Shown one piece after another: positions 24,967 through 62,184 of a DNA stretch of 64,000 bases. The position numbers and the translations under genes are program-made. How positions within the stretch are numbered: the first letter of the stretch is position 1; each line of letters opens with the position of its first letter. Under the pieces are notes generated by a model. It worked only from the letters and a program-made list of their open reading frames with translations, made no database searches and was not told where the DNA came from. The DNA comes from Acidobacteriota bacterium. GTDB lineage: Bacteria > Acidobacteriota > Blastocatellia > UBA7656. The DNA lies in assembly GCA_040754075.1 (NCBI GenBank), contig JBFMDH010000010.1, positions 97,830-161,829 of the forward strand. Reading direction: 5' to 3'.

Positions 24967-25048
24967 CAATTTTTCCTCTGGTTCAATTAAAAGCGGTTCT
25001 TTGCCGGGTTTGGGTTCGCTTTAATCATCAATACAACAGATAGATTCA

Positions 25049-25064
25049 GTCAATTCGTATGCCA
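25049..25064 (-). promoter_or_regulatory. Sigma-54-like promoter before the MBL/ATPase/NtrC/NtrY run
   Basis: The minus-strand sequence TGGCATACGAATTGAC has the -24 GG and the -12 TTG at the correct distance, but A replaces the C normally found after TTG. Predicted transcription would start near 25040, giving a leader of about 75 bases to the MBL ATG. It is nearly the same sequence as the element at 36868-36883. Confidence 0.6.
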
Positions 25065-25142
25065 TGAAATTCCGGCAAAAAACCCGGAAATATTCAGGCT
25101 TTTATCAATATTTTTATGGAAAAAGATGTTCACCTGTGCGGA

Positions 25143-25164
25143 TGTGGGACGCCAAAATCCCACA
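25143..25164. promoter_or_regulatory. Putative activator site, TGTGGGA-N8-TCCCACA
   Basis: This is a perfect dyad with 7-bp arms (8 including flanking A/T) and an 8-base spacer. Its TGGGA core starts 81 bp upstream of the -24 element at 25064. Geometry matches the sites at 36966 and 52107, so it is proposed as an enhancer for the NtrC-like regulator encoded downstream. Confidence 0.6.
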
Positions 25165-25291
25165 TTTGAGAAAGGTGGGCTGAACAGGAAACAAGCCTGA
25201 ATGAATAAGAATAGTTGAGACCCGAGCCGCCCCAATTATTCTTTTTTTGAGTTGATGATTGAAAAATAGAGAAGCCTGAGTAAACTCCGGT

Positions 25292-36574: not shown

Positions 36575-36817
36575 CTATCCATGCAGTTGCGCCGCTTTTT
36601 CTGCGAGCTTCAACACGGAAGCGTTACCCGTGGGGTTTAAAGCATCATCTTCGGTTGTCATCACCGTGCGGGCTTTTGCTTGATTAATCAGGCATGAAGC
36701 CATATCCGGCTTTTCATTACCGAAGCCTGCGGATTGCATTAACAATTCGCAAGCCAGAATTAACAAGAGTATGCAATGACTAAACATCTTCAAACCTTTC
36801 CACAAACAGGTTTCCAT
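36575..36817 (-). CDS. Possible small exported protein in the leader of ADOP copy d
   Basis: An 80-codon frame from the ATG at 36817 starts with Lys-containing residues followed by a hydrophobic run (CILLLILACELLM), as in a signal peptide, then a short polar tail ending AAQLHG. A second ATG at 36787 has AAAGG 7 bases upstream. The frame is open further, to 36865, but that codon lies upstream of the predicted transcription start and is unlikely to be used. No family is recognised. It could be a short secreted factor co-expressed with the permeases, or chance. Confidence 0.3.
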   Translation of the reverse strand: METCLWKGLKMFSHCILLLILACELLMQSAGFGNEKPDMASCLINQAKARTVMTTEDDALNPTGNASVLKLAEKAAQLHG

Positions 36818-36867
36818 ATCTTTCAGGCCGGGTGTCTCGCGCATTTGAGAAATCGCAGAAAGCATTA

Positions 36868-36883
36868 GTCAATTCCTATGCCA
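36868..36883 (-). promoter_or_regulatory. Sigma-54-like promoter before the ADOP d-c-b run
   Basis: The minus-strand sequence TGGCATAGGAATTGAC has -24 GG and -12 TTG with correct spacing. It matches the promoter at 25049-25064 at 15 of 16 positions, and similarity extends about 13 bases downstream. Predicted start of transcription is near 36857. Confidence 0.6.
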
Positions 36884-36965
36884 TCGGGAGAGTTCAAAAA
36901 AATGCTGAAATAATTGATGTTATTGATTGGTTAGCGGATGAGCCTTGAACGTCGTTGTGCGCTTT

Positions 36966-36983
36966 TGGGAATTAGTTATCCCA
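36966..36983. promoter_or_regulatory. Putative activator site, TGGGA-N8-TCCCA
   Basis: The 5-bp arms are perfect; on the right the flank continues CAT, as in the 25.1-kb site. The core begins 83 bp upstream of the -24 element at 36883, compared with 81 and 85 bp at the other two sites. Confidence 0.58.
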
Positions 36984-37000
36984 CATGTGCAATTCAATTC

Positions 37001-37037
37001 AACCCCGCAACCAAACGGCTTTGCTGGTTGCGGGGTT
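37001..37037 (-). terminator. Strong hairpin after the last gene of the six-ADOP run
   Basis: A 13-bp perfect stem (AACCCCGCAACCA / TGGTTGCGGGGTT) has an 11-base loop. It begins 29 bases beyond the stop of ADOP copy e. A five-T run follows on the plus strand, while on the minus strand the tail is TTGAATTGAATT, so termination may be bidirectional or imperfect. It separates the six-ADOP run from the next promoter element. Confidence 0.65.
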
Positions 37038-41965: not shown

Positions 41966-42099
41966 TACTTCCTCTCTTAACGGAAGATGTCGGTTGTGCA
42001 AGGCTGTTTGAGTGACGGTTGCGAATGATCCATGATTTTCTCGATAACCGGTTCCGCGATTGCTTGATTGAACCGAACATCTTTAACAGCTCATTGCAA

Positions 42100-44517
42100 T
42101 TACTCGTATCTCAGGGCAATCATCGGATCGACTTTAGTGGCTCGTCGCGCCGGAATGTAACAAGCAAGCAGTGCAATAGTGATGAGCAATATTGAAATTA
42201 ATACAAAGGTTAAAGGGTCTGTGGCGCTCACGCCAAACAGAAAACTTTTCATCAAGCGGGTCAATCCGAATGAAGCAATCAATCCCAAGCCAATCCCTGA
42301 GATGGCAAGCCCCAATCCGTATTTGACCACCAGTTTCACGACATCAACCGATTGCGCTCCGAGGGCGATTCGCAAACCGATTTCATTGGTGCGTTGCGCC
42401 ACGACATTTGAAACCACGCCATAAATTCCCACGGCTGCCAATAACAAACCGAGTCCCGCAAACAGCGCGAGCATCAACATATTGAAGCGTTGCGAAGCGA
42501 CTGAACGATTGGCGACCTCTTCCATTGTTAAAATCTGCGAGACCGGCATCGTCGCATCAAGCGTCGCAATTTCATTCTTAATCGCCTTGCTCAAACTGAG
42601 CGGCGCGACACGGGTTCGCACGGTGAAATTCGCTACCGTAAACGCACGAACCACCGCCATCAATTTGTCGGACATTTGCGGAATCGGTACGAAAACCATC
42701 GGCAGGGCATCACTGTCGAGACCCATCTGTTTGACATCGGCAATCACCCCAACAATCTGGCGCATCGGGTCACCCAGTCCGCGCCCGACGGTGAGTTGCT
42801 GGTTGAGCGGATTCTTTTCATTAAAGTAGCGGCGGGCAAAGGCTTCATTGATAATCGCCACCGACGCTGCGCCCGGGTTATCCGCTTCATTGAATTCTCT
42901 GCCCTGTTGCAAAGCGATTTTCATCACCTTGAAATATTCCGGTGAAATCATGCGCAACTGCACCGATTGCACCTTGTCGGGATTTTCGGGAAAAGTAACC
43001 GGCATGTTGAATTGCCAATCGAGCGGTAATTTATTCACCACCGCCGCTGATTCGACACCCGGCAGAGCTTTTATGCGTTCGGTAGCATCGCGATAAAAAG
43101 CCGCCGCTTCACTGGTCGTATCGTAACGCGCCCCGTTCAGGGCAACCTGAAAGGTCAATACATTGCGCGGGTCAAAGCCCGGTTCGACATTGAGCAGATT
43201 CGCAAAGGTGCGAATCAATAATCCAGCGCCGACAAGCAAGACCAGCGACAAAGCGACTTCGGCAACCACCAATGCGCCGCGCAATCGCCCGCGTGTGGCG
43301 GTGCCTCTGCCGGCGCTCTCTTTCAACGTCTGGTTGACATCGACTTTGCCCGCTTGCCACGCCGGAGCGAGTCCAAATAAGAGACCTGTGATGATCGCTG
43401 CCACGATTGCAAATGCCAATACCCAACCGTCGGCTTTGATCTGCGAGGCATTGGGCAAATAGCCTTGTGGCAAAGCGGCAATTAAAACTTCCGTACCCCA
43501 GACCGCCAGCAACAAACCGGCGGTGCCGCCGATGAGCGCAAGCAACACGCCTTCGGTCAGTAATTGTCGAATGATGCGCCCATTGCCAGCGCCAAGCGCG
43601 CGGCGCACGGCAATCTCTTTTTGTCGTCCGGCGGCGCGTGTGAGTTGCAAATTGGCAACATTGGCGCAGGCAATCAACAATAAAAAGCCGACCGCGCCAA
43701 ACAATATCCACAACAATTTTTCTACATCTTCGGTGAAAATTTCTTTGTAGGGTCTGACGCCTGCGCTTTCCCCCTCCTGCATCTGTTTGGGAAAAGCCTC
43801 GCGGTACTCGTCGGCAATCGATTGAAATTCGCTTGCTGCCTGTTCAAGGGTCACGCCCGATTTCAATCTCCCGACGACGGTGGCGTTCGGGTCATAATTG
43901 GCATTGGGTCGCGCCTTCAACGGCACGTATAAATCGATTGATTCACTGAACTGAAAATGCTTGGGCAAAATTCCGACGATGGTTACGGATTGGTCATTGA
44001 GCAGAACGGTTTTACCAAGCAAATCTTTGTCGCCGCCAAATCGCCTTTGCCACAATCCATCACTTAAAATCGCCACGGGGGCGCTGCCCGGTGTGTCTTC
44101 GGCTTGGGTAAACGGACGACCGAGCGCGGGGTAAACACCGAGCACTTGAAAGAAATCTTCGGAAATCCGCAACCCTCTGACGAATTCCGGCTCGTTTCCA
44201 CTCGATAAATTGCCACCCGCGCCGCCAAAATTTGAGTAAGCCGCGAGCGCTTCAAACGATTGATTGTGTTCGCGCCAGAAAAGAAACTTGGGTTCGCCCG
44301 AACCGGCTAAACCGCTCCTGAATTTCTGTCCGACATAGACCAATCGCTCAGCATCAGGATAGGGCAGCGGACGCAGCAACACCGAGTTGATGATGGTGAA
44401 GATTGCGGTGGTCGCGCCGATGCCGAGCGCCAGCGTCAATATGGCAATAAAGGTGAAGCCTGGTTTTTTCATGAGCATTCGTAAGCCATAACGTAAATCC
44501 TGTATCAAAGTTTGCAT
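42100..44517 (-). CDS. ADOP-type duplicated ABC permease (copy g)
   Basis: The product is 805 residues. Helix 1 has GIGATTAIFTIINSV instead of the common [11 protein letters not shown], and the C-terminal helix reads LLACYIPARRATKV instead of VACLVPARR. Its 3' end does not share the DNA block conserved in most other copies, so it has escaped the homogenisation seen elsewhere. First FtsX unit about 265-390, second about 680-800. AGAGGA precedes the ATG by 6 bases and the gap from copy h is 23 bases. Confidence 0.93.
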   Translation of the reverse strand: MQTLIQDLRYGLRMLMKKPGFTFIAILTLALGIGATTAIFTIINSVLLRPLPYPDAERLVYVGQKFRSGLAGSGEPKFLFWREHNQSFEALAAYSNFGGAGGNLSSGNEPEFVRGLRISEDFFQVLGVYPALGRPFTQAEDTPGSAPVAILSDGLWQRRFGGDKDLLGKTVLLNDQSVTIVGILPKHFQFSESIDLYVPLKARPNANYDPNATVVGRLKSGVTLEQAASEFQSIADEYREAFPKQMQEGESAGVRPYKEIFTEDVEKLLWILFGAVGFLLLIACANVANLQLTRAAGRQKEIAVRRALGAGNGRIIRQLLTEGVLLALIGGTAGLLLAVWGTEVLIAALPQGYLPNASQIKADGWVLAFAIVAAIITGLLFGLAPAWQAGKVDVNQTLKESAGRGTATRGRLRGALVVAEVALSLVLLVGAGLLIRTFANLLNVEPGFDPRNVLTFQVALNGARYDTTSEAAAFYRDATERIKALPGVESAAVVNKLPLDWQFNMPVTFPENPDKVQSVQLRMISPEYFKVMKIALQQGREFNEADNPGAASVAIINEAFARRYFNEKNPLNQQLTVGRGLGDPMRQIVGVIADVKQMGLDSDALPMVFVPIPQMSDKLMAVVRAFTVANFTVRTRVAPLSLSKAIKNEIATLDATMPVSQILTMEEVANRSVASQRFNMLMLALFAGLGLLLAAVGIYGVVSNVVAQRTNEIGLRIALGAQSVDVVKLVVKYGLGLAISGIGLGLIASFGLTRLMKSFLFGVSATDPLTFVLISILLITIALLACYIPARRATKVDPMIALRYE

Positions 44518-44540: not shown

Positions 44541-46982
44541 CTATTCGTAGCGGAGCGCAATCATGGGATCAACTTTGGTGGCGCGGCGCGCCGGCACCAA
44601 ACAGGCTACCAGAGCCACTCCTGTCAAAATCAAAGACACGACAATAAAGGTGACGGGGTCGGATGCCGTGACCCCGAAAAGCAGACTTTCGGTGATGCGA
44701 CCCAGTGCCAGCGCCCCAGCCAGACCTATGGCAATGCCGATGAATGTCAGTTTCAATCCGTGTTTGACAATCAGCCTTATTACATCGCCGGTCTGCGCGC
44801 CAAGCGCCATGCGCACACCGATTTCGTGGGTGCGTTGTGTCACCGCATAACTCATCACCCCATAAAGACCGACGATGGTAAGAAGCAGCGCGGCGCTGGC
44901 GAAAATGCAAAGCAGCAGCATATTGAATCGCGGTTGCGATACCGATGCCGAGATGTATTGATCAAGGGTTTTGATGTTGTACATCGGCAGGTCTTTATCA
45001 AGCGATTGAACTTCGCTGCGAATCGCCGCAACCGTAGCGGTCGGGTCATTGGTGGTGCGCACCACATAAAACATGGTCGGGCGGGGATTCTGTGGATAAG
45101 CGATATAGACTTCGGCGCGCGGTTCTTCATTCAAGGTTCGATGTTTGATGTCACTGACGACGCCGATAATCTCGCGCATGAGGATGCCGCGATCATCGGT
45201 CGCAAAACTCGGATTGATGCGTTTGCCAATCGGGTTTTGATTGGGGAAAAATTTATTCGCCAGGGTTTCATTGATGATGACGACTTGATTTGATGTTGAA
45301 GTATCGCGTTCATCAAAATCTCTGCCACTCAAAAGTTGAATTCCCATCGCGTGAAAATAACCGCTACTTACGGTTCTTAAATCCGTTTCATAGGGGAACG
45401 GACGATTGGGTTCGCCTGGCTCGCCTTCGATGGAAAAGCCCACGCCTGCGCCCTGTCCGCTAAATGGTAAAGCCGTAATGTAGGCGACGTCTTTTACACC
45501 GGCGATGCCTTCAATGCGCGAGGCGAGTTGGTTATAAAAATTCGTCAGATGTTGTTCCTGCGGATAGCGCGTATCGGGAAGTCCCAGACGAAAACTCAAC
45601 AGGTTGGTGGTTTCAAAACCGGGCTTGAGATTTTGCAAGCGAAAGAAGCTGTTGATTAACAGTCCTGCGGTTACCAGCAACGTCAATGCGATGGCGACTT
45701 CTGCGACCACGAAAACGCTGCGAATGCGATTGTGCTGTGCGCCGCCCGATGCACTACGTCCGCCTTCTTTCAAGGATTGCGTCAGGCTGGTTTTGGAAAT
45801 CTGCAACGCCGGAGCAATGCCAAAAAGCAACCCGGTGACTACCGAAATAAGCGTTGTAAAAATCAAAACGCTGGCATCAAAGCCGATGCTTGCGGCGCGC
45901 GGCAAGCCTTTCGGAACCAATGACAACACGAGGTCGGTTCCCCACATCGCAATCAACATTCCCAACATCCCGCCACTTACTGAAAGCAACAGGCTTTCGG
46001 TAATCAACTGGCGAATAATGCGCCAACGACTCGCGCCAAGCGCCGTGCGAATCGCCACCTCTTTTTGTCTGGTAGTGGCGCGCGCCAGTAAAAGATTGGC
46101 AACATTGGCGCAGGCAATCAGCAATACACAGGCGACCGCGCCGAACAGCAACCACAGCGCCAGACTGAAATCGCGAATCAGGTCTTGATGCAACGCGGCG
46201 ACTCGCACACCGAATTCCGAGTTGGTATCGGGAAACTGTTGAGCAATATCGCTGACTATCAAACTCATTTCGGCTTGCGCCTGTTCCGGCGTCACACCAG
46301 CTTTTAAACGACCGATAACCTCCAGCGCGTGATTGCCGCGTTGCGCAGTAAGCGGGGCGCGACCTTCCTGCATGGTTGCGGTTGTCGTCCATAGTTCGAT
46401 TACTGGTTCGGTCTGAATCGGAAAGACAAATCCAGCGGGCATCACCCCGATGACATTGTAATTTTGCCCGTTCAGGTTGATGGGCTTTTCAGGTAATCGA
46501 CCTTCGGAACCGAAATATTCCTGCCATACGCGATGGCTGAGAATCACTGCGCGCGCGCCCGGCTTATCTTCTTCGGCGCTAAAGAAGCGACCTTGTTCGG
46601 GACTCACGCCAAGCAGCGGTAATAATTCATGTGTGACCATCGCGCCGCGCAAACGAAACGGTTCGCCGACGCCTGTGATGGTGAAATCTCTGGTCGAATA
46701 GGCTGCCAGTTGGGTGAACGATTGATTGCGTTCGCGCCAATCATTAAAGTCCGGGTAGGTCGCGCTGCCCTGGTCTTCTTTACCCGAAGTGTTATAGACC
46801 ATCATCAAACGTTCAGGTTCAGGAAACGGCAGAGGGCGAAGCAAGACGCCATTGACCACACTGAAAATGGCGGTGTTTGCGCCAATCCCCAAGCTGAGAG
46901 TCATTATGGCAATCACTGCGAAAAATGGTTTTTTGAGCAAGGCTCGAAAGGCATAGCGTAAGTCTTGAATTAAATTATCCAT
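44541..46982 (-). CDS. ADOP-type duplicated ABC permease (copy h)
   Basis: This is an 813-residue permease with the first FtsX unit about 270-395 ([25 protein letters not shown], of which [10 protein letters not shown] is the family core) and the second about 690-810, ending ALRYE. Its first FtsX segment is especially close to that of copy d. The second periplasmic core carries the run GEPGEPNRPFP. AGAGA is the only ribosome binding site candidate, weaker than in its neighbours. A 72-base AT-rich gap separates it from copy i. Confidence 0.93.
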   Translation of the reverse strand: MDNLIQDLRYAFRALLKKPFFAVIAIMTLSLGIGANTAIFSVVNGVLLRPLPFPEPERLMMVYNTSGKEDQGSATYPDFNDWRERNQSFTQLAAYSTRDFTITGVGEPFRLRGAMVTHELLPLLGVSPEQGRFFSAEEDKPGARAVILSHRVWQEYFGSEGRLPEKPINLNGQNYNVIGVMPAGFVFPIQTEPVIELWTTTATMQEGRAPLTAQRGNHALEVIGRLKAGVTPEQAQAEMSLIVSDIAQQFPDTNSEFGVRVAALHQDLIRDFSLALWLLFGAVACVLLIACANVANLLLARATTRQKEVAIRTALGASRWRIIRQLITESLLLSVSGGMLGMLIAMWGTDLVLSLVPKGLPRAASIGFDASVLIFTTLISVVTGLLFGIAPALQISKTSLTQSLKEGGRSASGGAQHNRIRSVFVVAEVAIALTLLVTAGLLINSFFRLQNLKPGFETTNLLSFRLGLPDTRYPQEQHLTNFYNQLASRIEGIAGVKDVAYITALPFSGQGAGVGFSIEGEPGEPNRPFPYETDLRTVSSGYFHAMGIQLLSGRDFDERDTSTSNQVVIINETLANKFFPNQNPIGKRINPSFATDDRGILMREIIGVVSDIKHRTLNEEPRAEVYIAYPQNPRPTMFYVVRTTNDPTATVAAIRSEVQSLDKDLPMYNIKTLDQYISASVSQPRFNMLLLCIFASAALLLTIVGLYGVMSYAVTQRTHEIGVRMALGAQTGDVIRLIVKHGLKLTFIGIAIGLAGALALGRITESLLFGVTASDPVTFIVVSLILTGVALVACLVPARRATKVDPMIALRYE

Positions 46983-47054: not shown

Positions 47055-49502
47055 TCACTCATATCTGAGCGCGATAATGGGTTCGACTTTGGTTGCGCGT
47101 CGCGCCGGAATTAAACTCGCTGCCACTGCCACACCGGCAAGCAGCAAAGGCAAAATGGCGAAGATAAGCGGGTCGGTGGCGCTCACACCGAATAAGAGCG
47201 TGGTCATCAATCGGGTTAAGCCGAATGCAGCGACCAGACCTATCCCTAAGCCAATGACCGCCAGCACCATTCCCTGCCCGACAACCATCTTCAATACATC
47301 GCCGGATTTTGCGCCAAGCGCCATGCGTATGCCGATTTCGTGGGTGCGTTGAGTGACCGAATAAGCCATCACGCCGTAAAGTCCAACCGATGCCAGAATC
47401 AACGCCACGAGCGCAAAAATGCCAAGCAAGGTCATGGCAAATCGCCTCTGGGTCATTGAATCGGTGACCACCTGTTCCATCGTCGTGACGCGATAAACCG
47501 GCAGGTCACGATCAACCGATTGAATAGCGCCGCGCACAGCGGACGCCAGACCGGAAGGCTCGTTTGCGGTTCGTACAATCACAAACATTCCGTTGCCTGC
47601 CAGTTGACGATGCGGCAGGTAATATTGCACGGGCGATTCACCTTCAAGTCCTCTGTGGCGCACGTGACCGACGATGCCAACAATTTCGCGCCAGATGGGG
47701 TTGCCTTGCGGGTCGCGTTGAAAACTGATGCGCTTGCCAACCGGGTCTTCATCAGGCCAAAACTTGCGCTGCATGGTCTCATCAATAATCGCTACGGGTT
47801 GCGAGGTCAGCACGTCACGGTCATCAAAAAATCGCCCTTTAATCAAAGGGATATTCAGCGTTTGAAAATAATTGCTTCCCGCCTGCCAGCGATTTCCCCA
47901 GGGAGCCATCTCGCCCGGTTGAACGGTTCTGCCTTCGATGGCAAAACTGCCGCTCGAATTGTTGCCGCTCATCGGCACAGTCGAGGCAACGCCTGCGGAT
48001 TGCACCCCTGGTAACGCTTGAATACTTTGCAGCGCCTGTTGGAAAAAATTGTCTATCTTTTGCGGCTCATTATATTGATTGCCGGGCAACGCCACCTGCA
48101 TGACCAGGAGATTTTCAGGATTGAAGCCGGGGCTTACGTCTTGAAGTTTTGTGAAACTGCGAATCAACAATCCCGCGCCAATCAAGAGCACCAATGCCAG
48201 AGCTATCTCTGCAACCACCAGCGCGCTACGGACATTGCGTTTGGTGCCGCTTGCGCCGCTTCGTCCGCCTTCTTTCAAGGTATCGTGCAAATCGGTTTTT
48301 GAAGATTGCAGCGCCGGAACCAAGCCGAAAAGAATTCCCGTCAGTAAAGAGATTCCCAGTGTGAATATTAGAACGCGACTATCGAGACCGATTTCCTGCG
48401 AGCGCGGAATCAAATCGTTATTGAGTTTTAACAGGGCGTTGATTCCCCAGATGGCAAGTAAGGTTCCGAGTGTACCGCCAATCAACGCCAGCACTACGCT
48501 CTCGGTTAAAAACTGGCGAATCATGCGCATACGACTGGCACCGAGCGCCACACGAATCGCCACCTCTTTTTGACGCGATGCGGCGCGCGCCAGAAGTAAA
48601 TTGGCGACATTGGCGCAGGCAATCAGTAACACCAATCCGACTGCTGCCAATAACACCAGAAGCGCCGGTCGAATATCGCCAACGATCAGTTCGTGAAGCG
48701 GTCTCAGGCGCAATCCCCAACTGCCGGGGTCGCTGGCATCGCTGCCGGTGAAATATTGTTGCCTGACATTGGCGGCAATAGAATCCATTTCGGTCTGCGC
48801 CTGCTCAAACGTCACACCAGGTTTTAGGCGCGCTAAAACCGTGAGGAATTCATTGCGCCAGCGATTGGGTTGCAATTGCGCTTCGGTGAAAGTCAGCGGC
48901 GCATATAAATCAACGGTCTGCGCAAACTCTCTGCCAAATTGAAAACTCGGAGGCATGATGCCAATGACGTTATAGCTTTCGCCGTTGAGGGTGATGGATT
49001 GATTCAAGATGTTCGGGTCAGCGCCGAATCGTCTGCGCCACAATCCGTCACTTAGAACAACTACTTTGTTGCGTCCCGGTTGATCTTCTTCGGCAAGAAA
49101 GACGCGCCCTTTTGCGGGGTCAATGCCAAGCGTCGGGAAAAAGGTCGGGGTTACGGTGAGACCTGACAATCGTTCAGGTTCACCTGCGCCTGTGAGATTC
49201 ACCTGCCACATATTAAACGCCAGGATGTTTTCAAAGCTCTGGTTTTGGTCACGGTAATGCGTAAAACCAACAGCAGAAACCGAAGCGTTCAAATCAAGTT
49301 TGGGGTAGCGATGATTCATCATCACCAGGCGTTCCGAGTCTTTGTATGCCAGCGGCGTCAAAAGCACTGTATTGACGACACTGAAAATCGCGCTGTTTGC
49401 CCCGATGCCGAGCGCCAGGGTAATCAGCGCCACGGCGGTGAAGCCAAAATTTTTAAAGAGCAATCGGAAGCTATAACGTAAATCCTGAAGCAGGTCTTTC
49501 AT
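47055..49502 (-). CDS. ADOP-type duplicated ABC permease (copy i)
   Basis: The 815-residue copy ends VAASLIPARRATKVEPIIALRYE (key departures are Ser-Leu-Ile-Pro and Glu-Pro-Ile). Like copy g, its 3' end lacks the DNA block common to the others. The first FtsX unit has [20 protein letters not shown]-type sequence near 290-315; the second unit covers about 690-812. GGAGG lies 7 bases before the ATG and only 15 bases separate it from copy j, supporting co-transcription. Confidence 0.93.
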   Translation of the reverse strand: MKDLLQDLRYSFRLLFKNFGFTAVALITLALGIGANSAIFSVVNTVLLTPLAYKDSERLVMMNHRYPKLDLNASVSAVGFTHYRDQNQSFENILAFNMWQVNLTGAGEPERLSGLTVTPTFFPTLGIDPAKGRVFLAEEDQPGRNKVVVLSDGLWRRRFGADPNILNQSITLNGESYNVIGIMPPSFQFGREFAQTVDLYAPLTFTEAQLQPNRWRNEFLTVLARLKPGVTFEQAQTEMDSIAANVRQQYFTGSDASDPGSWGLRLRPLHELIVGDIRPALLVLLAAVGLVLLIACANVANLLLARAASRQKEVAIRVALGASRMRMIRQFLTESVVLALIGGTLGTLLAIWGINALLKLNNDLIPRSQEIGLDSRVLIFTLGISLLTGILFGLVPALQSSKTDLHDTLKEGGRSGASGTKRNVRSALVVAEIALALVLLIGAGLLIRSFTKLQDVSPGFNPENLLVMQVALPGNQYNEPQKIDNFFQQALQSIQALPGVQSAGVASTVPMSGNNSSGSFAIEGRTVQPGEMAPWGNRWQAGSNYFQTLNIPLIKGRFFDDRDVLTSQPVAIIDETMQRKFWPDEDPVGKRISFQRDPQGNPIWREIVGIVGHVRHRGLEGESPVQYYLPHRQLAGNGMFVIVRTANEPSGLASAVRGAIQSVDRDLPVYRVTTMEQVVTDSMTQRRFAMTLLGIFALVALILASVGLYGVMAYSVTQRTHEIGIRMALGAKSGDVLKMVVGQGMVLAVIGLGIGLVAAFGLTRLMTTLLFGVSATDPLIFAILPLLLAGVAVAASLIPARRATKVEPIIALRYE

Positions 49503-49517: not shown

Positions 49518-51944
49518 TCATTCATACCTGAGCGCGACCATCGGGTCGGTCTTGGCGGCGCGACGCGCGGGCACCAAACAGGCTACCAGAGCCACTCCTG
49601 CGATAATTGAGGCAACCAGAAAGAAAGTTGAAAAGTCTGTGGCGCTTACACCAAAGAGTAAGCTCTCCAGAAATCGCGTCGCGAAAAATGCGCCAACCAA
49701 CCCAATGACGATGCCAGTGCCGATAAGGTTTACGCCCTGCCCTAAAATCAATTTGATGACATCCAAACGCTGTGCGCCAAGCGCCAACCGTATGCCGATT
49801 TCCTGTGTGCGTTGGGTGACCGAATAAGAAATCACCCCGTAGATGCCAATCACTGCGAGCAACAAGGCAGTCAGGGCAAACAGTCCAATCAGATAAGCCG
49901 GATAGCGACGCGCAAAGGTCGAAGGTAAGCTATCGAGTATATTTTGAATGGTGGTTTCACCCGAAACCGCCAGGTCAGGGTCAAGCGATTGACATTCGCT
50001 GCGAATGGCTTGCGCCAGTTTGTTCGGGTCGGAAGTCGTGCGGGCGATAAAACCGATGACCGTGCTCGATTCCTGTAAGAACGGAAAATAGACCACGCCG
50101 GTGGTTGGCGAATCGGGACTATTTACTTTTTCGTCTCCGACAATGCCAACAATTTCAAACGGGGTCGGTGTGTCGCCGAAAAAGATCAACCGTTTGCCGA
50201 TAGGGTTTTCATTTGGAAAAGTTCTTTTGGCAATGGTTTGATTGACCACCACGACCGCTGGCGCTCGCTGATTATCGTTATTGGTAAATTCGCGCCCTTC
50301 AATAACCGGAATCTCCATGACATTGAAATAGCCTGGGCTGATGGTGCGGACATTGATTTCTGGCGATTGTCCTCTTTCAGGTTGCGGCGTACCTTCGACA
50401 TAAAAACTGTGGGTGTTGCCGCCAAGAAACGGGGTCACATCAATCGATCCGGCAGCTTTCACGCCGGGAACCGATTCAATATGTTCAAGAAGGGTTTGAT
50501 AGAAATTGGTAACTTTCTCCGCTTCGCTATATTTCGTTTGCAACAGGCTGACCTGAAAACTCAAGAGGTTTTCGGTATTGAAACCGGGGTCGACCTGCAA
50601 CAGTTTCAGTGTGCTCTTGAGCATCAAGCCCGCGCCAATCAATAGCACCAGAGATAAGGCGACCTCTGCAATGACTAAGGCTTTGCGGAAGTTTTGGCGA
50701 AGGTGTGTAGCCGAAGACTTGCCGCCTTCTTTCAAGGTCGATTGCAAATCGAATTTGGAAGATTGCAGGGCAGGAACCAGCCCGAAAAGTATACCTGTCA
50801 TAATCGACAGACCAACGGTGAAAAGCAAAATCGTGTTGTCGATTTTCAAGCCGCGCAGATAAGGCATGGTGTTGAGTTGCATCTGCGGTATCGCAGCAAT
50901 CAACGCCTCGACACCCCACATCGCCAGAAACAATCCCAAGGTTCCACCAATGAGCGCCAGCAAAACGCTTTCGGTCAGCAGTTGTTGAATCAACCTTGCG
51001 CGATTTGCGCCGAGCGCAAGGCGTATGGCAACCTCTTTTTGACGCGAGGCGGAACGCGCCAATAACAAGTTTGCAACATTGGCGCAGGCAATCAACAAAA
51101 CCAAACCGACAGCCGCAAGCAAGGCAATCATAATCGGTTTTACACTGCCGACAATCTGTTCGCGTAACGAAATCAAGCTGACGGTTGTGCCCGAATGCGA
51201 ATCGGAAAACTGTCCGGCAATCTGTTCACCGATTGCCTGCAAATCAGCTTGCGCCTGCTCTACGGTCACATTCGGTTTAAGTCGGGCAATGACTTTAACC
51301 CAGTGCATATAACGACGGCTGAGTTGTGCGGGTCCAGGTTCAACCGGCATCCACATCTCAACGCCGGGTCGCAATGCGAATTGAAAACTCTGTGGCATTA
51401 CGCCAACCACTGTGTAAGTTTGCCCGTTGAGCGTCATTTTCTCGCCGATGATATTTTCATCGCCGCCAAAAAGTCTTTGCCATAACCCATAATTGAGAAC
51501 CACGACGCGACCTACGCCGGGTTTCTCTTCTTCAGGAAGAAAGGTGCGACCGAGCATGGGGTCAACGCCAAGCACTGAAAAGAAATTGGCGCTGACACCG
51601 GTTGAAGCTATGCGTTGGGCTTCTCCGCGACCGGTTAAGGTGACGCCGCGACTACCGGTGTAGGCTGCAACATCGAGAGAACGCGCCTGTCGCCAATCGA
51701 GAAAATCGGGATAAGAAGCTTCGCGTTGTTTGTAGTCTCCCTGCGAGCGGGTTTCCCACAAGTGAAAAAGTTTATCCGGCTCTTTATAAGGCAAGCCGCG
51801 CAATAAAGTGGCATTGACCACGGTAAAAATTGCGGTGTTTGCGCCAATCCCTAAAGCAAGGGTGACGATGGCGACGAGGGCGAATCCCGGTGTCTTTAGA
51901 AATGAACGAATGGCATAACGCAGGTCTTGCCATAAGGTGTACAT
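49518..51944 (-). CDS. ADOP-type duplicated ABC permease (copy j), first gene of the six-permease run
   Basis: The start is set at the ATG at 51944 with a GGGGGG site 5 bases upstream; the frame is open six codons further but without a site. The 808-residue product has helix 1 near 17-42, the first FtsX unit about 268-395 ([20 protein letters not shown] core) and the second about 685-805, ending ALRYE. It is the promoter-proximal gene behind the sigma-54-like element at 52.02 kb, with a predicted leader of about 60 bases, and is followed by copies i, h, g, f and e. Confidence 0.93.
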
Positions 51945-52014
51945 AATTACCCCCCAGGACAAATTTTTTCTTTCAACCGAAAGACCAAGTTAGCGGCAGG
52001 GTGCAGGTTTTCAT

Positions 52015-52030
52015 ACCAAATGCCGTGCCA
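52015..52030 (-). promoter_or_regulatory. Sigma-54-like promoter before the six-ADOP run
   Basis: The minus-strand sequence TGGCACGGCATTTGGT has a perfect TGGCACG -24 block, and the -12 TTG is at the right distance; G replaces the C after TTG. Transcription would begin near 52003, about 60 bases before the ADOP copy j start. Confidence 0.68.
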
Positions 52031-52106
52031 CGTTGCGTAGTTGCTGCTAAACGATTGATTTATAAAGTAAGGAAAAGGGGTGATTGGCGGATGGTTTTCA
52101 AAAATG

Positions 52107-52140
52107 TGCGATTATGGGATTGATTAGTCCCATAATCGCA
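52107..52140. promoter_or_regulatory. Putative activator site, 13-bp inverted repeat containing TGGGA-N8-TCCCA
   Basis: The perfect 13-bp arms (TGCGATTATGGGA and its complement) have an 8-base spacer. The TGGGA core starts 85 bp upstream of the -24 element. It is not followed by a T-run on either strand, so a terminator is less likely, although as RNA it would fold well; it lies 90 bases beyond the repeat-protein stop. Confidence 0.6.
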
Positions 52141-52229: not shown

Positions 52230-53297
52230 TTAATTGCCACGCATTTTCCGAATCGCTTCGGAATTGAAGCCATGAATTTTCAAGCGCACCAGTTCATCAA
52301 CCGTTACATTGGTAAACCCGGCGTCGCGCATCTCTTTAACGAATTTGCTGTCGATGCCGTGGATGCGCAACGTCACCAGTTTTTCGAGCGGAATATCGCG
52401 AAAACCCGCGTCTTCCATCTCTTTGATGAAATCTTTATTGACGCGATGAATTTTCAGAGAAACCAGTTTTTGCATAGGCAAATCGCTATAGCCCATCTCT
52501 TTGACGCCTTTAATAAACTCTTCATCAATTTTATGTATGCGCATGGTCATCAATTGATCGAGGGTCAAATCATTAAAGCCGAGCGCCTTGGCTTTGGCGA
52601 TAAATTCCCGATCAATGTTATGAATGCGCATGGCGACCAGTTTATCCGCAGACAATCCTTTGAAGCCCATCTCTTCGACATCTTTGATGAATTGCGCGTT
52701 CACATTATGAATGCGGAAAGCAATCAACTTGTCTTCCGAAAGTTTATCGAAACCGAGCGCCTTGATGCCGCGAATGTATTCGGCATCGACGCGATGAATG
52801 CGCATAGCGATTAATTTATCGAGCGAGACTTTGTCATAGCCCACCGACCGCAATTCATTAACCCAGTTGGTGCCTACGTCATGAAGCGCCATCGAAAACT
52901 GTTTTTCCGGCGTAATCCCTTCATAACCATAACTGCGCATGGTGTTGATGAAACCCGGATTCGGGGTGAATTTGAAATCGCCGACGCCTTTGCCATCTTT
53001 GAACAGTCCATCAAAGGTCACCGTGCCAGCTTCTCTTGCGAGAGAGAATTGCACATTCCCCGCCGCGTTGACATCCAGCCCGCGAAAATCCTGCAAAGGC
53101 ATTTCGCTGCCCCAGTTCATATAGCGGTAACGTCCATCCTTCTCCATACTGATATTGAGATAAAGCATACGTCCTTTGCTGGTGTCTCTGACTTTGGCAG
53201 TCCAATCACCGGCAAACGATTCCTGCGCAGCGTTCGAGGCTCCCGAAAAGCTATAAATCAGTAATCCAATAACTGCGAAGAATAATGTTTTTTTCAT
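52230..53297 (-). CDS. Exported protein built of 29-residue helical repeats
   Basis: From the ATG at 53297 (AGGAG 5 bases upstream) the product has 355 residues. A signal peptide (about 4-24) leads to a beta-rich domain (about 30-125). About eight copies of a 29-residue repeat follow (residues 135-350), each of the form RIHNVDxEFIKxVKxxGF with a Leu-Ser-x-Asp-Lys-Leu ending. The same repeat forms the C-terminus of the M56 peptidase encoded upstream on this strand, 117 bases away. Repeats of this type (pairs of short helices) look like protein-binding solenoids; no named family was recognised. It is likely the third gene of the BlaI operon and a partner or substrate of the peptidase (inference). 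Confidence 0.85.
   Translation of the reverse strand: MKKTLFFAVIGLLIYSFSGASNAAQESFAGDWTAKVRDTSKGRMLYLNISMEKDGRYRYMNWGSEMPLQDFRGLDVNAAGNVQFSLAREAGTVTFDGLFKDGKGVGDFKFTPNPGFINTMRSYGYEGITPEKQFSMALHDVGTNWVNELRSVGYDKVSLDKLIAMRIHRVDAEYIRGIKALGFDKLSEDKLIAFRIHNVNAQFIKDVEEMGFKGLSADKLVAMRIHNIDREFIAKAKALGFNDLTLDQLMTMRIHKIDEEFIKGVKEMGYSDLPMQKLVSLKIHRVNKDFIKEMEDAGFRDIPLEKLVTLRIHGIDSKFVKEMRDAGFTNVTVDELVRLKIHGFNSEAIRKMRGN
52242..52890 (-). repeat. 87-bp tandem coding repeats in the exported repeat protein
   Basis: About 7-8 units encode a 29-residue module each, recurring with Ile-His-Asn/Gly-Val/Ile-Asp starts. Units are diverged at the DNA level, so they are old rather than recent expansions. Confidence 0.85.
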
Positions 53298-53414
53298 AAC
53301 CACTCCTTGTGACAATCTTGGCTGGGATTACAAAACGAAATACTGAATTGCAGAAACTATAGACCTGTGGACAAACAATTCCTCTATCGGTTTCAACTGA
53401 CTGAAGCGTCTGTT

Positions 53415-55799
53415 TTACTTACTGTTTCTTAGAAGAATTTCGTCCAAACCGTGCATTTTCATTTCAAGCAATTGATTGAGCGAAACATTTTTGAATCCGG
53501 CGGCGCGAATCTTTCGCACGTAATCCGGGGTGACGTTGTGAATTTTCAACCGGAGGACTTGTTCAAGCGTCAGGTTATCAAACCCCAGTCCGCGCATCTC
53601 TTTTACGAAGTCGGCGGTGATGCCATGAATTTTTATTTGTAACAACTTCTCGAATGAGACATTGTCGAATCCCATCGCTTTCACTTCATTTGCAAACGCC
53701 GGGGTCAAATTATGAACCTTGATTTGCACCAATTGATTCAAGGTCAATTTCTCGCCTGTCCAACTCTCTGCCTGGCGAATGAATTCTTCATTGATATTTT
53801 GCGAACGCAAACTGATGACTTGATTCAAGGTCAGTTTTCCGAATCCGAGTTTACGCAGCGCGTCAATATATTGCGGCGTGACATTGAAGGTTTTTAAACT
53901 GGTGAGCTGGCGAACCGTAAGCTGCTCGAAACCGGCTTTTTTTATTGACGAAATATAATCGCCGGTGACGCCCGAAACTTTCAGTTGGATGAGGTCACGA
54001 ACCGTAGGTTTATCAAAGCCCCAGTTTTGCACCTGACGAACATAGGCTTCATCAATGTTATGGATTTTCAGTTCGGCTATCTGATGAACGCTTAAATTAT
54101 CGAACCCCATTTTTTTAAGCGATTCGATATATTCCGGCGTCACATCAGCCATTTTCAAGCGGATGAATTCATTCGGGGTTAGCGGCTTGGTCGATTTATT
54201 TTTTGATTCGGAATTCTGTCCGCTGCCGATTCCTGCTCCGCCGCCAACGCCATAACCTGCGCCCGCTCCGGTGCCGGTTCCTGCGCCACTTCCTGCGCCG
54301 ATACCTGTACCGCTTCCCTGCCCTCTGCCTTGACCTTCGCCAGTTGTCACCTCACCGGGGTTTGCTTCATTAGTAAAATTCACAGCGATGACCGGATTCG
54401 GTTGATTTTCGCTTTTGCTCGAAACCTGTGCGGCGTTCTGGGTTTGCAGGGAAGCTTTAATATCATCCAGGCTTCTTAAAATCGCCGGTTGGTTATCCGC
54501 GCCGGCGACTTCATTGACTTCATAAGGGTTTTCAACAATCGCTATTTCATTATCGGCGTTGGCAGAATTTACCTCCGCGATGTGGGCTTCAACCTTGCTT
54601 CGCGGTTGAATTATCGCCAGCGGAATGATTAACAAGGTCGCGATTAACGTTGTAAAAGCCACACGCTGGCGAGAATTGGTTTGGCGTTTAATGTTGGTAT
54701 TCAAAATGGTGCGCACACGGTTTTCGAGTTCCGAACACGCCATGCCAACCGCAAACGGCGAGACACAGACGTTGGCTTTAAATGACCGGGCGATTTCAAC
54801 CAGATACCCCGCATAATCGGAAGGTCGTGTGCCGATTTGCAAAACTTCATCATCACAGGCGAGTTCACGTTCAACCCGCAACCGCGCAGCCAGTTTCCAC
54901 ACCTGCGGATTGAACCAGTAAATCGCGCAAGCCATCTGTGCCAGAGTTTGCGTCAAACAATCGCGCCTTTTGACATGCGCCAGTTCGTGAAGCAACACGA
55001 TGCTTCGACCTTTCAATGACCAATCATCTGCGGCTTCGGGCAGTAAAATTACCGAACGAAATGCGCCCCAGGTCATCGGCAATGAAACGCGCTCGGTCTT
55101 TAAAATTTTTACCCCTTTATTCAATGACAGCCGGTTGCTCAAACTGTGCGTAAGCGTTACCCAGGAAATATCGGTGACCGGTGTTGCCTTGAGCGCGATA
55201 AACCAGACATTGAATAAGCCGAATGCGAAGCGGCAGGAAACCATTAAAAATCCGCCCAGCCAGATTGCCAGGATAAGCCCTCCCCAGTTGAATTCATTTG
55301 CCGACTGACGCTTTTCGGTTTCCAGATGCGAGGCGACATCCGGTAGCGCCATCACTGGCGGCAGCGATAACTCATCAACTCTGTAAAGCTCTGTTTGCTT
55401 GGCTCTCGATGAAGCCATCGGTTCCTGAGCCGTAAACCTGGTTTCGTTCCGGTCAGTTACCGGTTTATTGATTTCGGCAGGAGAAGAATTGGTCGGCTCC
55501 ATACTCATTTTATTCTGATTTTCAATGTGGACATCGGCGACAGTTGGTGAAATCAACGTCGGTAAAACCGGGAAGCGAATTGCCGGTAAACTCAACGCCA
55601 GCACCGGAATCAACAGCACGGCGGCGATTGACACACTCAAAATCAGGTGCCGGGTCGCGGCTGAATATTTTTTGAGCAAGGCAACCATAACTTGAGCCAA
55701 CGTGAGGACAAGCAAACTTTTCATTGCCACATCAAAAAGTAATTGCAGTCCGTCGTTGGTGTTTAAATTAAAGAAAACCAGATTGAACATTGCGGTCAT
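53415..55799 (-). CDS. BlaR1-like M56 family metallopeptidase with C-terminal 29-residue repeats
   Basis: This 794-residue integral membrane peptidase has N-terminal helices (about 23-42, 48-72), a third near 170-200 and a fourth near 376-392. The zinc motif HELAH (about 269-273) is followed by the typical RRD, and a downstream ERELACDDEVL supplies the third ligand. M56 peptidases of the BlaR1/MecR1 type sense an extracellular signal and inactivate the cognate BlaI repressor. Instead of a penicillin-binding sensor domain, the C-terminal part holds a Gly-rich low-complexity linker (about 484-528) and about eight 29-residue repeats (540-790), the same unit as in the neighbouring exported protein. 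The ATG lies 3 bases after the BlaI stop, with AGGA inside the BlaI end, so translation is coupled. Confidence 0.92.
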   Translation of the reverse strand: MTAMFNLVFFNLNTNDGLQLLFDVAMKSLLVLTLAQVMVALLKKYSAATRHLILSVSIAAVLLIPVLALSLPAIRFPVLPTLISPTVADVHIENQNKMSMEPTNSSPAEINKPVTDRNETRFTAQEPMASSRAKQTELYRVDELSLPPVMALPDVASHLETEKRQSANEFNWGGLILAIWLGGFLMVSCRFAFGLFNVWFIALKATPVTDISWVTLTHSLSNRLSLNKGVKILKTERVSLPMTWGAFRSVILLPEAADDWSLKGRSIVLLHELAHVKRRDCLTQTLAQMACAIYWFNPQVWKLAARLRVERELACDDEVLQIGTRPSDYAGYLVEIARSFKANVCVSPFAVGMACSELENRVRTILNTNIKRQTNSRQRVAFTTLIATLLIIPLAIIQPRSKVEAHIAEVNSANADNEIAIVENPYEVNEVAGADNQPAILRSLDDIKASLQTQNAAQVSSKSENQPNPVIAVNFTNEANPGEVTTGEGQGRGQGSGTGIGAGSGAGTGTGAGAGYGVGGGAGIGSGQNSESKNKSTKPLTPNEFIRLKMADVTPEYIESLKKMGFDNLSVHQIAELKIHNIDEAYVRQVQNWGFDKPTVRDLIQLKVSGVTGDYISSIKKAGFEQLTVRQLTSLKTFNVTPQYIDALRKLGFGKLTLNQVISLRSQNINEEFIRQAESWTGEKLTLNQLVQIKVHNLTPAFANEVKAMGFDNVSFEKLLQIKIHGITADFVKEMRGLGFDNLTLEQVLRLKIHNVTPDYVRKIRAAGFKNVSLNQLLEMKMHGLDEILLRNSK
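53430..54190 (-). repeat. 87-bp tandem coding repeats at the 3' end of the M56 gene
   Basis: About eight diverged units of the module seen at 52242-52890 (for example LKIHNVTPDYVRKIRAAGF). Shared unit length and Ile-His-Asn core show common origin of the two repeat arrays. Confidence 0.85.
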
Positions 55800-55802
55800 A
55801 AA

Positions 55803-56192
55803 TTAACGTCCTTTTTTACGGGCATCTTCAATCAACCCGGAAAGTCTGTCTAATTCATCCTGCGAGAGTTTGGAACCGGAAATATCGAGAAGCGTGGCGA
55901 CGGCTTCTTCGGTTGAGCCGTCAAAGAAGGTTTGCAACATCTGTTTCAATGCCGATTTTCTGGCTTTTTCGCGCGCCAGTGTGGGAATGAAAATGTATCG
56001 CGGCCCGTCCTGTTGATGCTTTAAATACCCCTTTTCTTCAAGCAACCTGAGCATAGCGCGGACTGCCGAATAACTGGGCGGTTCCGGCAATTGCTCCAAC
56101 ACTTCGGCAGCGGTTGCCTGTCCGAGTTTATAAATAACATCCATGATTTGCCGTTCCCGACGGCTCAGCTTATGGTGCGATTTCTGCGTCAT
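55803..56192 (-). CDS. BlaI/MecI/CopY family repressor
   Basis: From the ATG at 56192 (GAGAGG about 4 bases upstream) the product has 129 residues. A winged helix domain occupies the N-terminal half (LSRRERQIMDVIYKLGQ, AAEVLEQLP, YSAVRAMLRLLEEKG, YLKHQQDGPRY). The C-terminal helices (FFDGSTEEAVATLL) form the dimer interface. BlaI repressors bind paired dyads and are cleaved after signalling by the partner M56 peptidase, which is encoded immediately downstream. A GTG at 56240 would add 16 residues but has no ribosome binding site and lies next to the operator. Confidence 0.93.
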   Translation of the reverse strand: MTQKSHHKLSRRERQIMDVIYKLGQATAAEVLEQLPEPPSYSAVRAMLRLLEEKGYLKHQQDGPRYIFIPTLAREKARKSALKQMLQTFFDGSTEEAVATLLDISGSKLSQDELDRLSGLIEDARKKGR

Positions 56193-56243
56193 ATCTCCTC
56201 TCAATCTTGTTTGCGTTGTCGCCTGGTTTTTATTATTCACCAG

Positions 56244-58439: not shown

Positions 58440-58625
58440 TCATTCGCAACGAAGCGCCACCATCGGGTCGGTCTTGGCGGTGCGGCGCGCCGGCACCAAA
58501 CCGGCTACCAGAGCCACTCCTGTTAAAATTACCGGTACGAAAGCAAATGCCAAAGCATGGGTTACGCCCCTGCCAAAGAACTGGGGCAATCCGAAACTTT
58601 CATCAGGGTAAAGGCAATACCTTTA
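58440..58625 (-). pseudogene. 3' relic of an ADOP permease gene
   Basis: The minus strand encodes the last ADOP helix and tail: [18 protein letters not shown] and [12 protein letters not shown] followed by TGA. Going upstream the frame continues through [12 protein letters not shown] and then breaks (a frame shift relative to the LTRLMK-like segment), after which homology fades near 58.6 kb. At least 97 percent of the gene is missing. The relic sits directly between the HNH gene and the second DUF4097 gene, showing that an ADOP copy was lost here. Confidence 0.85.
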
Positions 58626-59717: not shown

Positions 59718-62156
59718 TCATTCATACCTGAGCGCCACCATCGGGTCGGTCTTGGCGGCGCGACGCGCCGGCACCAAACCGGCTACCAGAGCCACTCCTG
59801 TCAAAATTACCGATACCGCAGCGAAGGTTAAAATATCGGTCGCGCTCACGCCGAACAACAAATCTTTCATCAACCGCGTCAGAAAAAACGAACCAGCCAG
59901 ACCGATGCTGACGCCGATAACCGCAAGCCTCAGCCCCTGGTTGATAATCATTTGCAGGATATCTTTTTTCTGTGCGCCGAGCGCCAACCGTATGCCGATT
60001 TCGCGCGTTCTCTGACTGACGGAGTAAGCCATCACGCCGTAAATTCCGATGCTTGCGAGAATCAACGCCAGCAGTCCGAACATGGCAAAAAGCGTGGTTA
60101 AAGCTCTCGGCTCCGTTACCGATTCGGACATCAATTGCTCCATAGTTTTGACATTCGATACCGGCAAATCTTTATCGACAACCCAGACTTCATTGCGAAT
60201 TGCGGCAACCGAACCGAGCGGGTCGCCTTGTGTACGCACCGCTACATACATCGAGCGCCACCACAGATTCTGCAAAAAGGGCGTATACAGGGTCGGCTTC
60301 GGTTTTTCATTCAACCCGGCGTATTTCACATCATCAACCACGCCGACTATCAAATCATACGGAAATTGCGGGCTGTAATCGCCGGTTTGCAGTCGTTTGC
60401 CAACCGGGTCTTGACCGGCAAAATAGAGTTCAGCCATTGTCTTGTTGATGATGATAGCCGCCGGCGCATCCTGATTATCCGCATCGGTAAACACCCGTCC
60501 GTTAATTAATCGGATGCCGAGCGTTTTGAAATAATCGGGACTGACCAACAGATGTTCGGCAAGCGGTTGCGCTTCACCGGTGGCAGGCGGATTTCCCTCT
60601 ACCGTAAAAGGGTTGGTCATAATTAACAGATTCGGCGGCAATGCCATCGAAAGGCTTGCCGATTCCACACCGGGCAAGGATTCAACACCCTGTAAAAACC
60701 GTTGTTGAAATGTGGCAACCTGAGCAGCATCCGGGTATTTATTGCGCGGCAAATTGATTTGCAGGCTGACCACATTGTGGGGATTGAAACCGGGATTGAC
60801 CTGTTGCAGAGTTTGAAAACTGCGAATCATCAAACCCGCGCCAACCAATAAAATCAAGGCGAGTGCGAGTTCAGAGACTACCAATAAATTTTTGAGTCGG
60901 CGTTTGGCAAAACCTTCCGTATCACTGCGCCCGCCTTCTTTGAGTGCTGTCTGCAAACGAACCTGGCCGCTTTGAATTGCCGGCGCGAGTCCGAAAATCA
61001 ATCCGCTCACCATTGAAATCAAACCGGTAAATAAAAGCACTCGACCATCAAGTTGCATTTCGTCCAGGCGCGGCAGATTTTCCGGTTTGAAGGCGACAAT
61101 CAAATCCATTCCCCAGGACGCAAGAAATAATCCAAGCGTTCCGCCGATGAGCGCCAATAATAAACTTTCAGTTATCGATTGGCGAATCAACCGCCAACGA
61201 CTCGCGCCCAGCGCCGCGCGAATCGCCATCTCTTTTTCACGACCGGTTGCGCGTACCAGTAATAGATTGGCGACATTGACCGAAGCGATAAGCAACACAA
61301 AAACCACTGCGCCAAGCAGCACAATGAGTGGCAATTCGGAATTGCCAACAATTATGGTCTTGAGCGGTCGCAAGACGGTTTTGCTTTTGCTTTCATCATT
61401 ACTGCCAGGCGTAGCAAAGCGTTTGCCGATTTCGTTGACGATGGCGCTAGTGTCGGCTTGCGCCTGTAGTTGTGTGACTCCATCCTGTAACCGACCGATG
61501 ACCCCCAGATAATAAGGCGGGCGATTTTGCGGCGGCGCAATTTGAATCGTCGCCCAAAATTCTGAAGTTCCGGTTCTGGCAAAGCGAAATTCTTTGGGCA
61601 TCACGCCAATCACTGCATAGCTTTGGTTATTGAGGGAAATCGATTGCTCGCTGGCGCGAGGGTCACCATTCAGATGTTTTTGCCAGAAAGCGTAACTGAC
61701 AACCACCACACGCTCTTTGCCGGGTTGGTCTTCATCCGGTAAAAAGGTTCGACCTAACATCGGCTTCATTTGCAAAACTTCAAAAAAGTCTGCGGTCACA
61801 AGTGAACCGATGACCTGTTCGGGAACCTCTTTGCCAGTGAGGTTGAACCCGTTACGCGGCGTTGAAAAACCAGCAACGTGAGAAAAGCTTTGATTGTATT
61901 CTTTAATGGCGAGAAAATCAGCATCGCCAAGGCTGCCTCGACCGCCTTCCAATTGCGAATTGAACAAGCCGATGTCCATCACGCTTTCGGAATTCGGATA
62001 AGGCAAGGCTTTGAGCAGCACAGCGTTGACGACCGAAAAAATTGCCGTATTCGCGCCGATGCCAAGCGCGATGACAATTACCGCAATGAAGGTAAAGGTC
62101 GGGGTTTTCAAAAGCATCCGCGCACCATAACGAATATCTTGCAAAAGCGTATCCAT
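59718..62156 (-). CDS. ADOP-type duplicated ABC permease (copy k)
   Basis: This 812-residue copy lies outside the main array. The ATG at 62156 has AAGGAG 5 bases upstream; a GTG two codons earlier is closer than optimal. Helix 1 reads [19 protein letters not shown], the first FtsX unit (about 275-400) has [20 protein letters not shown] instead of the common [11 protein letters not shown], and the second ends [16 protein letters not shown]. The final VAGLVPARR matches the relic at 58.44 kb, so the relic is probably its closest relative here. The gap to the agmatinase gene upstream is 28 bases, with a DUF4097 gene downstream. Confidence 0.93.
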
Positions 62157-62184
62157 AATCACTCCTTAAAGCCTTTGTCGATTA

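Follow-up and report, generated by a model that had tools for sequence, protein, structure and literature searches.

The DNA analysed here, a stretch of 64,000 nucleotides from an Acidobacteriota genome (the window), carries ten ADOP permease genes on the minus strand, arranged as a run of six (run 1, genes j to e) and a run of four (run 2, genes d to a), and downstream of them a predicted operon with an ABC ATPase, an NtrC-type activator, and a histidine kinase (Table 1). All ten ADOPs of the two runs score above the TIGR03434 cut-off of 622.3 bits and cover the full profile with no fused ATPase—a lack that is part of the ADOP name, so that this point is not new. The protein encoded at 59718–62162 also exceeds the cut-off, and with 29 ADOPs that do so, the family is strongly multiplied in the genome. 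The gaps of 15 to 98 nt given for run 1 in the initial annotation agree with the ORF ends. For ADOP j, the sequence favors a start at ATG 51944 over the listed TTG 51962; the true start of ADOP f probably lies later than listed, since the family match begins at residue 17, and that of the histidine kinase is probably later than its listed TTG as well. The 96-residue ORF ahead of ADOP d features a hydrophobic stretch past an internal methionine and could encode a small secreted protein or a leader. A remnant of an ADOP C terminus lies at 58443–58580 on the minus strand (profile positions 758–803, in an open frame of 60 residues) and is a decayed copy. Beside the ADOPs, the minus strand at 52230–56240 carries a trio of BlaI repressor, M56 (BlaR1-like) peptidase, and repeat protein, which is also found beside ADOPs in a relative (L154, 3254–6831).

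Table 1. Features of the two ADOP runs, the regulator genes, and the three copies of the promoter module (positions in the window).
Feature	Position	Strand	Evidence or remark
UAS 1, 36 bp, TGCGATTATGGGA-N8-TCCCATAATCGCACA	52105–52140	-	dyad, genome pattern search; matrix score 37.5
Sigma-54-like -24/-12 site 1, TGGCACGGCATTTGGTA	52014–52030	-	84 nt after UAS core; 10/10 consensus positions
ADOP j, first gene of run 1	49518–51944	-	TIGR03434, 1004.8 bits
ADOP i	47055–49502	-	TIGR03434
ADOP h	44541–46982	-	TIGR03434
ADOP g	42100–44517	-	TIGR03434
ADOP f	39548–42001	-	TIGR03434
ADOP e, last gene of run 1	37066–39516	-	TIGR03434
13-bp hairpin between run 1 and UAS 2	37001–37037		T-run on plus-strand side
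UAS 2	36956–36991	-	pattern search; matrix score 35.4
Sigma-54-like site 2, TGGCATAGGAATTGACT	36867–36883	-	82 nt after UAS core; 8/10 consensus positions
96-residue ORF between promoter 2 and ADOP d	36575–36865	-	without homology support
ADOP d, first ADOP of run 2	34028–36496	-	TIGR03434
ADOP c	31556–34012	-	TIGR03434
ADOP b	29107–31542	-	TIGR03434
ADOP a	26387–28846	-	TIGR03434
DUF4097 protein behind run 2	25292–26182	-	domain search
UAS 3	25135–25170	-	pattern search; matrix score 26.0
Sigma-54-like site 3, TGGCATACGAATTGACT	25048–25064	-	80 nt after UAS core; 8/10 consensus positions
Metallo-beta-lactamase-fold protein, first gene after promoter 3	23803–24969	-	PF00753
ABC ATPase behind third module copy	22975–23679	-	nearest models DarD, MacB, and LolD, all below curated cut-offs
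NtrC-type activator	21517–22881	-	receiver PF00072, AAA+ PF00158 with GAFTDA, Fis-type HTH PF02954
Histidine kinase	20085–21611	-	domain search; listed TTG start overlaps activator gene

Ahead of ADOP j, the minus strand reads TGGCACG-GCAT-TTGG at 52030–52015, and farther upstream lies a perfect 13-bp inverted repeat with arms at 52107–52119 and 52128–52140 and a loop of 8 nt. The initial annotation had located both as a sigma-54-like site and a dyad, and both can be read directly from the sequence; the observation was right, if understated, as the pair is one unit of three in the genome. The exact dyad core TGGGA-N8-TCCCA occurs in the window at 25145–25162, 36966–36983, and 52115–52132, and is followed on the same strand by TGGCA-N6-TTG at distances of 80, 82, and 84 nt, respectively. 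These are the only pairs with a gap of 65 to 95 nt in the 7.58-Mb genome and the reversed-pattern control yields 0, so that the combination is not due to chance. Seven of the ten TGGCA-N6-TTG occurrences in the window lack such a dyad, and the -24/-12 site alone stays at chance level: TGGCACG-N4-TTGCW is found once with one mismatch (0.80 expected in the 64-kb window) and eight times with two mismatches (14.0 expected). A matrix derived from 42 sites outside the window—one further site, L168, being left out because it lies at a contig end—returns these three places only when run over the window, with scores of 64.6, 50.3, and 39.1, and nothing on the opposite strand or upon reversal of the sequence.

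One copy of the module precedes each of the two ADOP runs, of six and of four genes, and the third precedes the predicted operon that encodes the ABC ATPase together with activator and kinase. The earlier proposal of one enhancer-dependent promoter for six permeases stands insofar as a candidate for such a promoter is found ahead of the run and the element recurs before the ADOPs of relatives, but it is too narrow, as the module also heads run 2 and the regulator operon. The module was not found at the other 19 ADOPs of the genome in a matrix scan of the 29 ADOP loci with flanks of up to 1.5 kb. A sigma-70 promoter for run 1 was considered as well and rejected: the search gave 16 sites against 15.9 in shuffles of the region 36.3–53.5 kb, and 0 between 51944 and 52140.

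Recurrence of the module was followed in 118 relatives (of 120 sought), ranging from the bacterium's own family to its own class. The composite pattern of the dyad about 80 bp upstream of TGGCA-N6-TTG, for which the initial annotation had suggested such a scan, has 43 matches in 16 of the 118 genomes (one place is listed twice) against 1 in the reversed control. The composite matches have a further common element downstream of the dyad. The extended 28-base element derived from them, TGGGA-N8-TCCCA-NNANYGNNCA, gives 54 matches in 20 of the 118 genomes against 0 in the control, with no promoter condition imposed and full palindromes counted on both strands. The initial annotation had stated that lack of the element ahead of related ADOP runs would refute the proposal; in relatives, the element is present upstream of ADOP genes. 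A full nested palindrome, TGTnCG...TGGGA-N8-TCCCA...CGnACA, forms the UAS at G048:C456, G049:C332, G003:C10, C40, C154, and C161, and G011:C168. Beyond the class, a scan of the phylum with the composite pattern returned 22 rows against 14 control matches, so that most of those rows are chance; six of them with a CGnAC-type half-site were examined, and five have a -24/-12 match of at least 9/10. In Verrucomicrobia records the UAS has weak matches only (L225, L226, and L231).

Fifty-five regions were fetched for comparison, comprising the sites of the class except the window's own and that of G054 (which has no CGnACA), together with 6 of the 22 out-of-class rows. Sites were kept if they had both the tail nnAn[CT]Gnn[CG] and a -24/-12 match scoring 9/10 or more, which gave a set of 44. 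The tail filter removes window UAS 3, L141, L147, L163, and L164; the -24/-12 filter removes window UAS 2, L129, L131, L133, L134, L135, L136, L145, L149, L161, and L179, the 11 UAS sites without a match of at least 9/10 within 260 nt.

The spacing between UAS and promoter is nearly fixed and phased. From the UAS core to TGG, the gap is 82 to 85 nt in 25 of the 44 sites, 71 to 73 nt in nine, and 93 to 95 nt in four, and the remaining six gaps are 59, 60, 64, 107, 122, and 172 nt. The clusters around 73, 83, and 94 nt, which hold 38 of the 44 sites, are one helical turn apart. The 17 gaps of 50 to 115 nt outside the main cluster share its helical phase (mean cosine 0.65, p ~1e-4 from 20,000 draws), a p value that is optimistic, given the common descent of many sites and the permitted gap of 65 to 95 nt under which most were collected. 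The gap of 172 nt belongs to G006:C175 (L162), where a full-consensus promoter follows the UAS with no labelled gene behind it and few on the contig.

The genes behind the module are strongly biased. Forty-three sites outside the window have a -24/-12 match of 9/10 or better. The first gene downstream of them on their strand encodes an ADOP in 22 cases, a MacA-like adaptor in eight, a receiver-SpoIIE protein in five, an ABC ATPase in three, and another protein in three, and two sites have none; the labels come from a simple longest-ORF script, which performs poorly in GC-rich genomes, and the neighborhood count was repeated by tblastn. At two of the three sites with another protein (L146 and L158), ADOPs come next. 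At L128, L170, one of L156, and L180, more than 800 nt separate the site from its first called gene, and these four genes may lie outside the regulon. Domain checks of example targets returned receiver and SpoIIE domains (four of the five such sites were scanned), a HlyD adaptor, and an M28 peptidase, and an OEP outer-membrane protein is encoded behind L164, which lies outside the 43 sites. Judged by these domain assignments, the genes behind the module read as a MacAB-TolC-like export regulon. The receiver-SpoIIE (PP2C-type phosphatase) proteins follow the module at L138, L165, L168, L174, and L175, so that the regulon may also feed a partner-switching or phosphatase output.

The usual loop of NtrC-type activators reads GAFTGA. 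The activator of the window carries GAFTDA instead, and GA[FY]TDA is found in 14 of 14 aligned orthologues, in which the recognition helix and HTH core are invariant. Orthologues with at least 64% identity occur in 34 of the 118 genomes. They are present in 14 of the 20 that carry the extended UAS against 20 of the 98 others (Fisher p=3e-5, an optimistic value as the sites are related by descent), and in 14 of the 16 that match the composite pattern. In G019 and G049, the operon of the orthologue is itself immediately preceded by the module, and a weaker candidate is present in G027 (L074). In the best 80 of the 588 orthologue loci found, many of them on short contigs, tblastn places the kinase close by in 71, an ABC ATPase in 44, an ADOP in 30, and MacA in 24, and at least one of the latter three in 50. 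Among the matches listed, records bearing the label Verrucomicrobia or Opitutaceae also have the family near MacA, ABC, or ADOP genes; among the best 25 NCBIfam models listed, no equivalog model of the activator family exceeds its cut-off.

These observations are best accounted for by a sigma-54-dependent two-component regulon with three promoters for MacB-like (ADOP) exporters, which we consider likely on the grounds of sequence comparison. Upon its presumed signal, the kinase would activate the NtrC-type protein; the activator would bind the 36- to 38-bp palindrome TGGGA-N8-TCCCA-nAAnCGnACA and, once bound, loop to sigma-54 RNA polymerase at TGGCA(CG)-TTG, 80 to 84 nt downstream. Switched on in this way would be the six ADOPs, the four ADOPs, and the predicted operon of ABC ATPase, activator, and kinase—the activator operon being among its own targets, which would amount to positive feedback—and the co-produced ATPase would power the permeases in trans.

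An alternative is that the module is real and its UAS is bound by another activator of the genome, the NtrC-type protein of the window being only a target. With 31 strong activator-domain matches in the genome another protein could bind the UAS, and the correspondence between element and protein is incomplete: 6 of the 20 UAS genomes (some of them incomplete) have no close NtrC orthologue, and 20 genomes with the orthologue have no exact UAS. We regard this assignment as rather unlikely, given that the co-occurrence of UAS and orthologue is significant, that the activator gene lies in the cluster and behind a module copy, as it does in G019 and G049, and that its family sits beside ABC, ADOP, or MacA genes in the 50 of the best 80 of 588 loci mentioned above.

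Transcribed into RNA, the UAS 1 dyad forms a hairpin of -24.6 kcal/mol (z -7.7) with a short T-tail, CATTTTTG following the stem; it hence features the stable hairpin and the directly adjoining T-run of an intrinsic terminator, and its stem is the longest in a terminator scan of 36.3–53.5 kb. The gene that precedes the dyad on the minus strand ends at 52230. The dyad at 52107–52140 could accordingly be nothing but the terminator of the upstream BlaI-M56-repeat operon, with the -24/-12 site as a chance match, yet this is very improbable: the core recurs at a like distance from a -24/-12 site at two further places in the window, where UAS 2 and UAS 3 fold more weakly (z -2.7 and -1.3) with no T-run after them; TTTT comes soon after the UAS at only 3 of 43 UAS sites; and CGnACA is conserved outside the hairpin core. 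A reading as terminator only was dropped once the same core with a -24/-12 site had been seen three times in the window. Given its strong folding and its T-tail, the UAS 1 dyad may additionally end the upstream BlaI-M56-repeat transcript and so have a double role as terminator and UAS. The hairpin that had been taken as the end of run 1 exists with its 13 bp, but it is not a canonical terminator of a minus-strand run because its T-run is on the plus-strand side. That dyad and -24/-12 site should be paired by chance can be practically dismissed: the -24/-12 matches taken singly are about as frequent as chance would have them and the out-of-class matches are mostly chance, but within the class the controls already contradict it for both patterns (43 against 1 and 54 against 0), the genes downstream are biased, and the spacing is phased.

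The textbook -12 element of sigma-54 promoters is TTGC, with GC ten bases after GG. The sigma-54-like site of the initial annotation is present where it had been located, but its -12 element reads TTGG and departs from that form. After TTG, 34 of the 44 sites have G, four have A, four have C, and two have T, and three of the four sites with C are out-of-class (L175, L176, and L180). Compared with the textbook GC, the G is at the right spacing, as required by the search, and the second base is mostly G; the promoter of the regulon is therefore filed as a variant that would work like a sigma-54 promoter and not as a textbook member. Sigma-54 promoters also have an invariant GG at -24, in TGGCA(CG). 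Here TGG is fixed by the search, and the four positions of CACG are matched in 43, 43, 44, and 39 of the 44 sites, an outcome that the 9/10 filter favors. The genome has one RpoN gene, and both the HTH and the RRTVAKYR box are intact in an alignment to sigma-54 proteins of solved structures.

Genome-wide counts of TGGCACG-N4-TTGC and TGGCACG-N4-TTGG were obtained for 19 genomes. By family, TTGC is found against control 29/17 times in f1, 6/10 in f6, 70/16 in f4, f5, and f7 together, 5/12 in f3, and 4/5 in f2; the respective numbers for TTGG are 43/25, 14/17, 41/28, 9/11, and 4/4. These noisy counts hint that f4, f5, and f7 keep TTGC, with f1 and f6 having no clear preference. The full-consensus TTGC promoter is about four times above control in f4, f5, and f7 and not in f1 or f6, a possible lineage shift of the -12 element. 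Changes in RpoN as the cause of TTGG were considered and rejected, as a comparison of 24 RpoN loci yielded no residue of the HTH or RpoN box that separates the groups.

The initial annotation described the permeases as having no dedicated ATPase. This is probably wrong, since a MacB/LolD-type ATPase is encoded in the same regulon, behind the third module copy, and relatives have closely similar ATPases adjoining their ADOPs. MacB and LolD are among the PDB relatives of this ATPase. By script ORF calls, ATPases 65 to 77% identical to it occur in six of the 55 regions; in L178 and L153 the ATPase gene overlaps an ADOP gene and in L133 it lies 87 nt behind one, and these three ATPases are 71 to 77% identical. 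A second ATPase clade (~44%) is found in MacA-ABC operons, several of which have ADOPs. In 7 of the 55 regions, an ABC and an ADOP gene are on the same strand and no more than 400 nt apart. Shared regulation and gene neighborhood suggest that the ATPase of the window may power the ADOPs.

Sigma-54 two-component regulons are of a textbook kind. The regulon proposed here resembles those of NtrC, AtoC, and ZraR in its activator of receiver, AAA+, and Fis-type HTH domains encoded beside a histidine kinase, in a palindromic UAS about 80 nt upstream of the -24/-12 site, and in having the activator operon as a target; it differs in its multi-permease, MacB-like export target, the TTGG at -12, the GAFTDA loop, and the long palindrome with an outer CGnACA half. 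MacAB-TolC is similar with respect to MacB-like permease domains (in the protein at 59718–62162; in the ADOPs of the runs MacB stays below cut-off), the HlyD-type adaptor and OEP protein behind the module of relatives, and the MacB/LolD-type ATPase, whereas the permease here has no fused ATPase and occurs as ten copies arranged in two runs. In Salmonella and E. coli, MacAB is under PhoPQ control (PMC5985334). The darobactin exporter DarBCD shows likeness too: the ATPase is closest to the DarD model (247.6 bits), the adaptor at L157 matches DarC, and the ADOPs match DarB weakly—all with scores below the curated cut-offs.

A prediction of sigma-54 enrichment upstream of COG0577 FtsX-type permeases in gamma-Proteobacteria, Opitutia, and Bacteroidia, and upstream of COG1136 ATPases in Opitutia, has been published and called first evidence (PMC12316311, 2025). 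Both that work and ours predict sigma-54 to act on these broad families of permeases and ATPases; in its passages on them, no UAS, no activator pairing, and no ADOP is given, and Acidobacteri* is absent from its main text. In the open-access literature (with few subscription papers covered), neither an ADOP regulon nor this UAS was found described, nor a known ATPase or control for ADOPs; within the reach of this search, the regulon, its UAS, the form of the -12 element, and the link to the ATPase are new.

The recurrence of the module suggests what regulates and powers the so-called orphan ADOP permeases: a regulon of ten ADOPs, one ATPase, and its own activator is a concrete candidate for both the ATPase and the control of ADOPs, and the UAS is a candidate binding site and a motif for reading exporter regulons in related genomes. 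A wider reading, which we put forward tentatively and consider possible but doubtful, is that ADOPs are not orphans at all—one sigma-54 regulon would make a shared ATPase, in relatives along with MacA-like and TolC-like parts, and up to ten interchangeable permeases as a mix-and-match exporter, and in the lineages with the module the promoters of the regulon, perhaps sigma-54 promoters generally, would have moved from TTGC to TTGG at -12.

Elsewhere in the window, the minus strand at 9705–11336 encodes a TPR protein with two retroviral-type aspartyl protease stretches.
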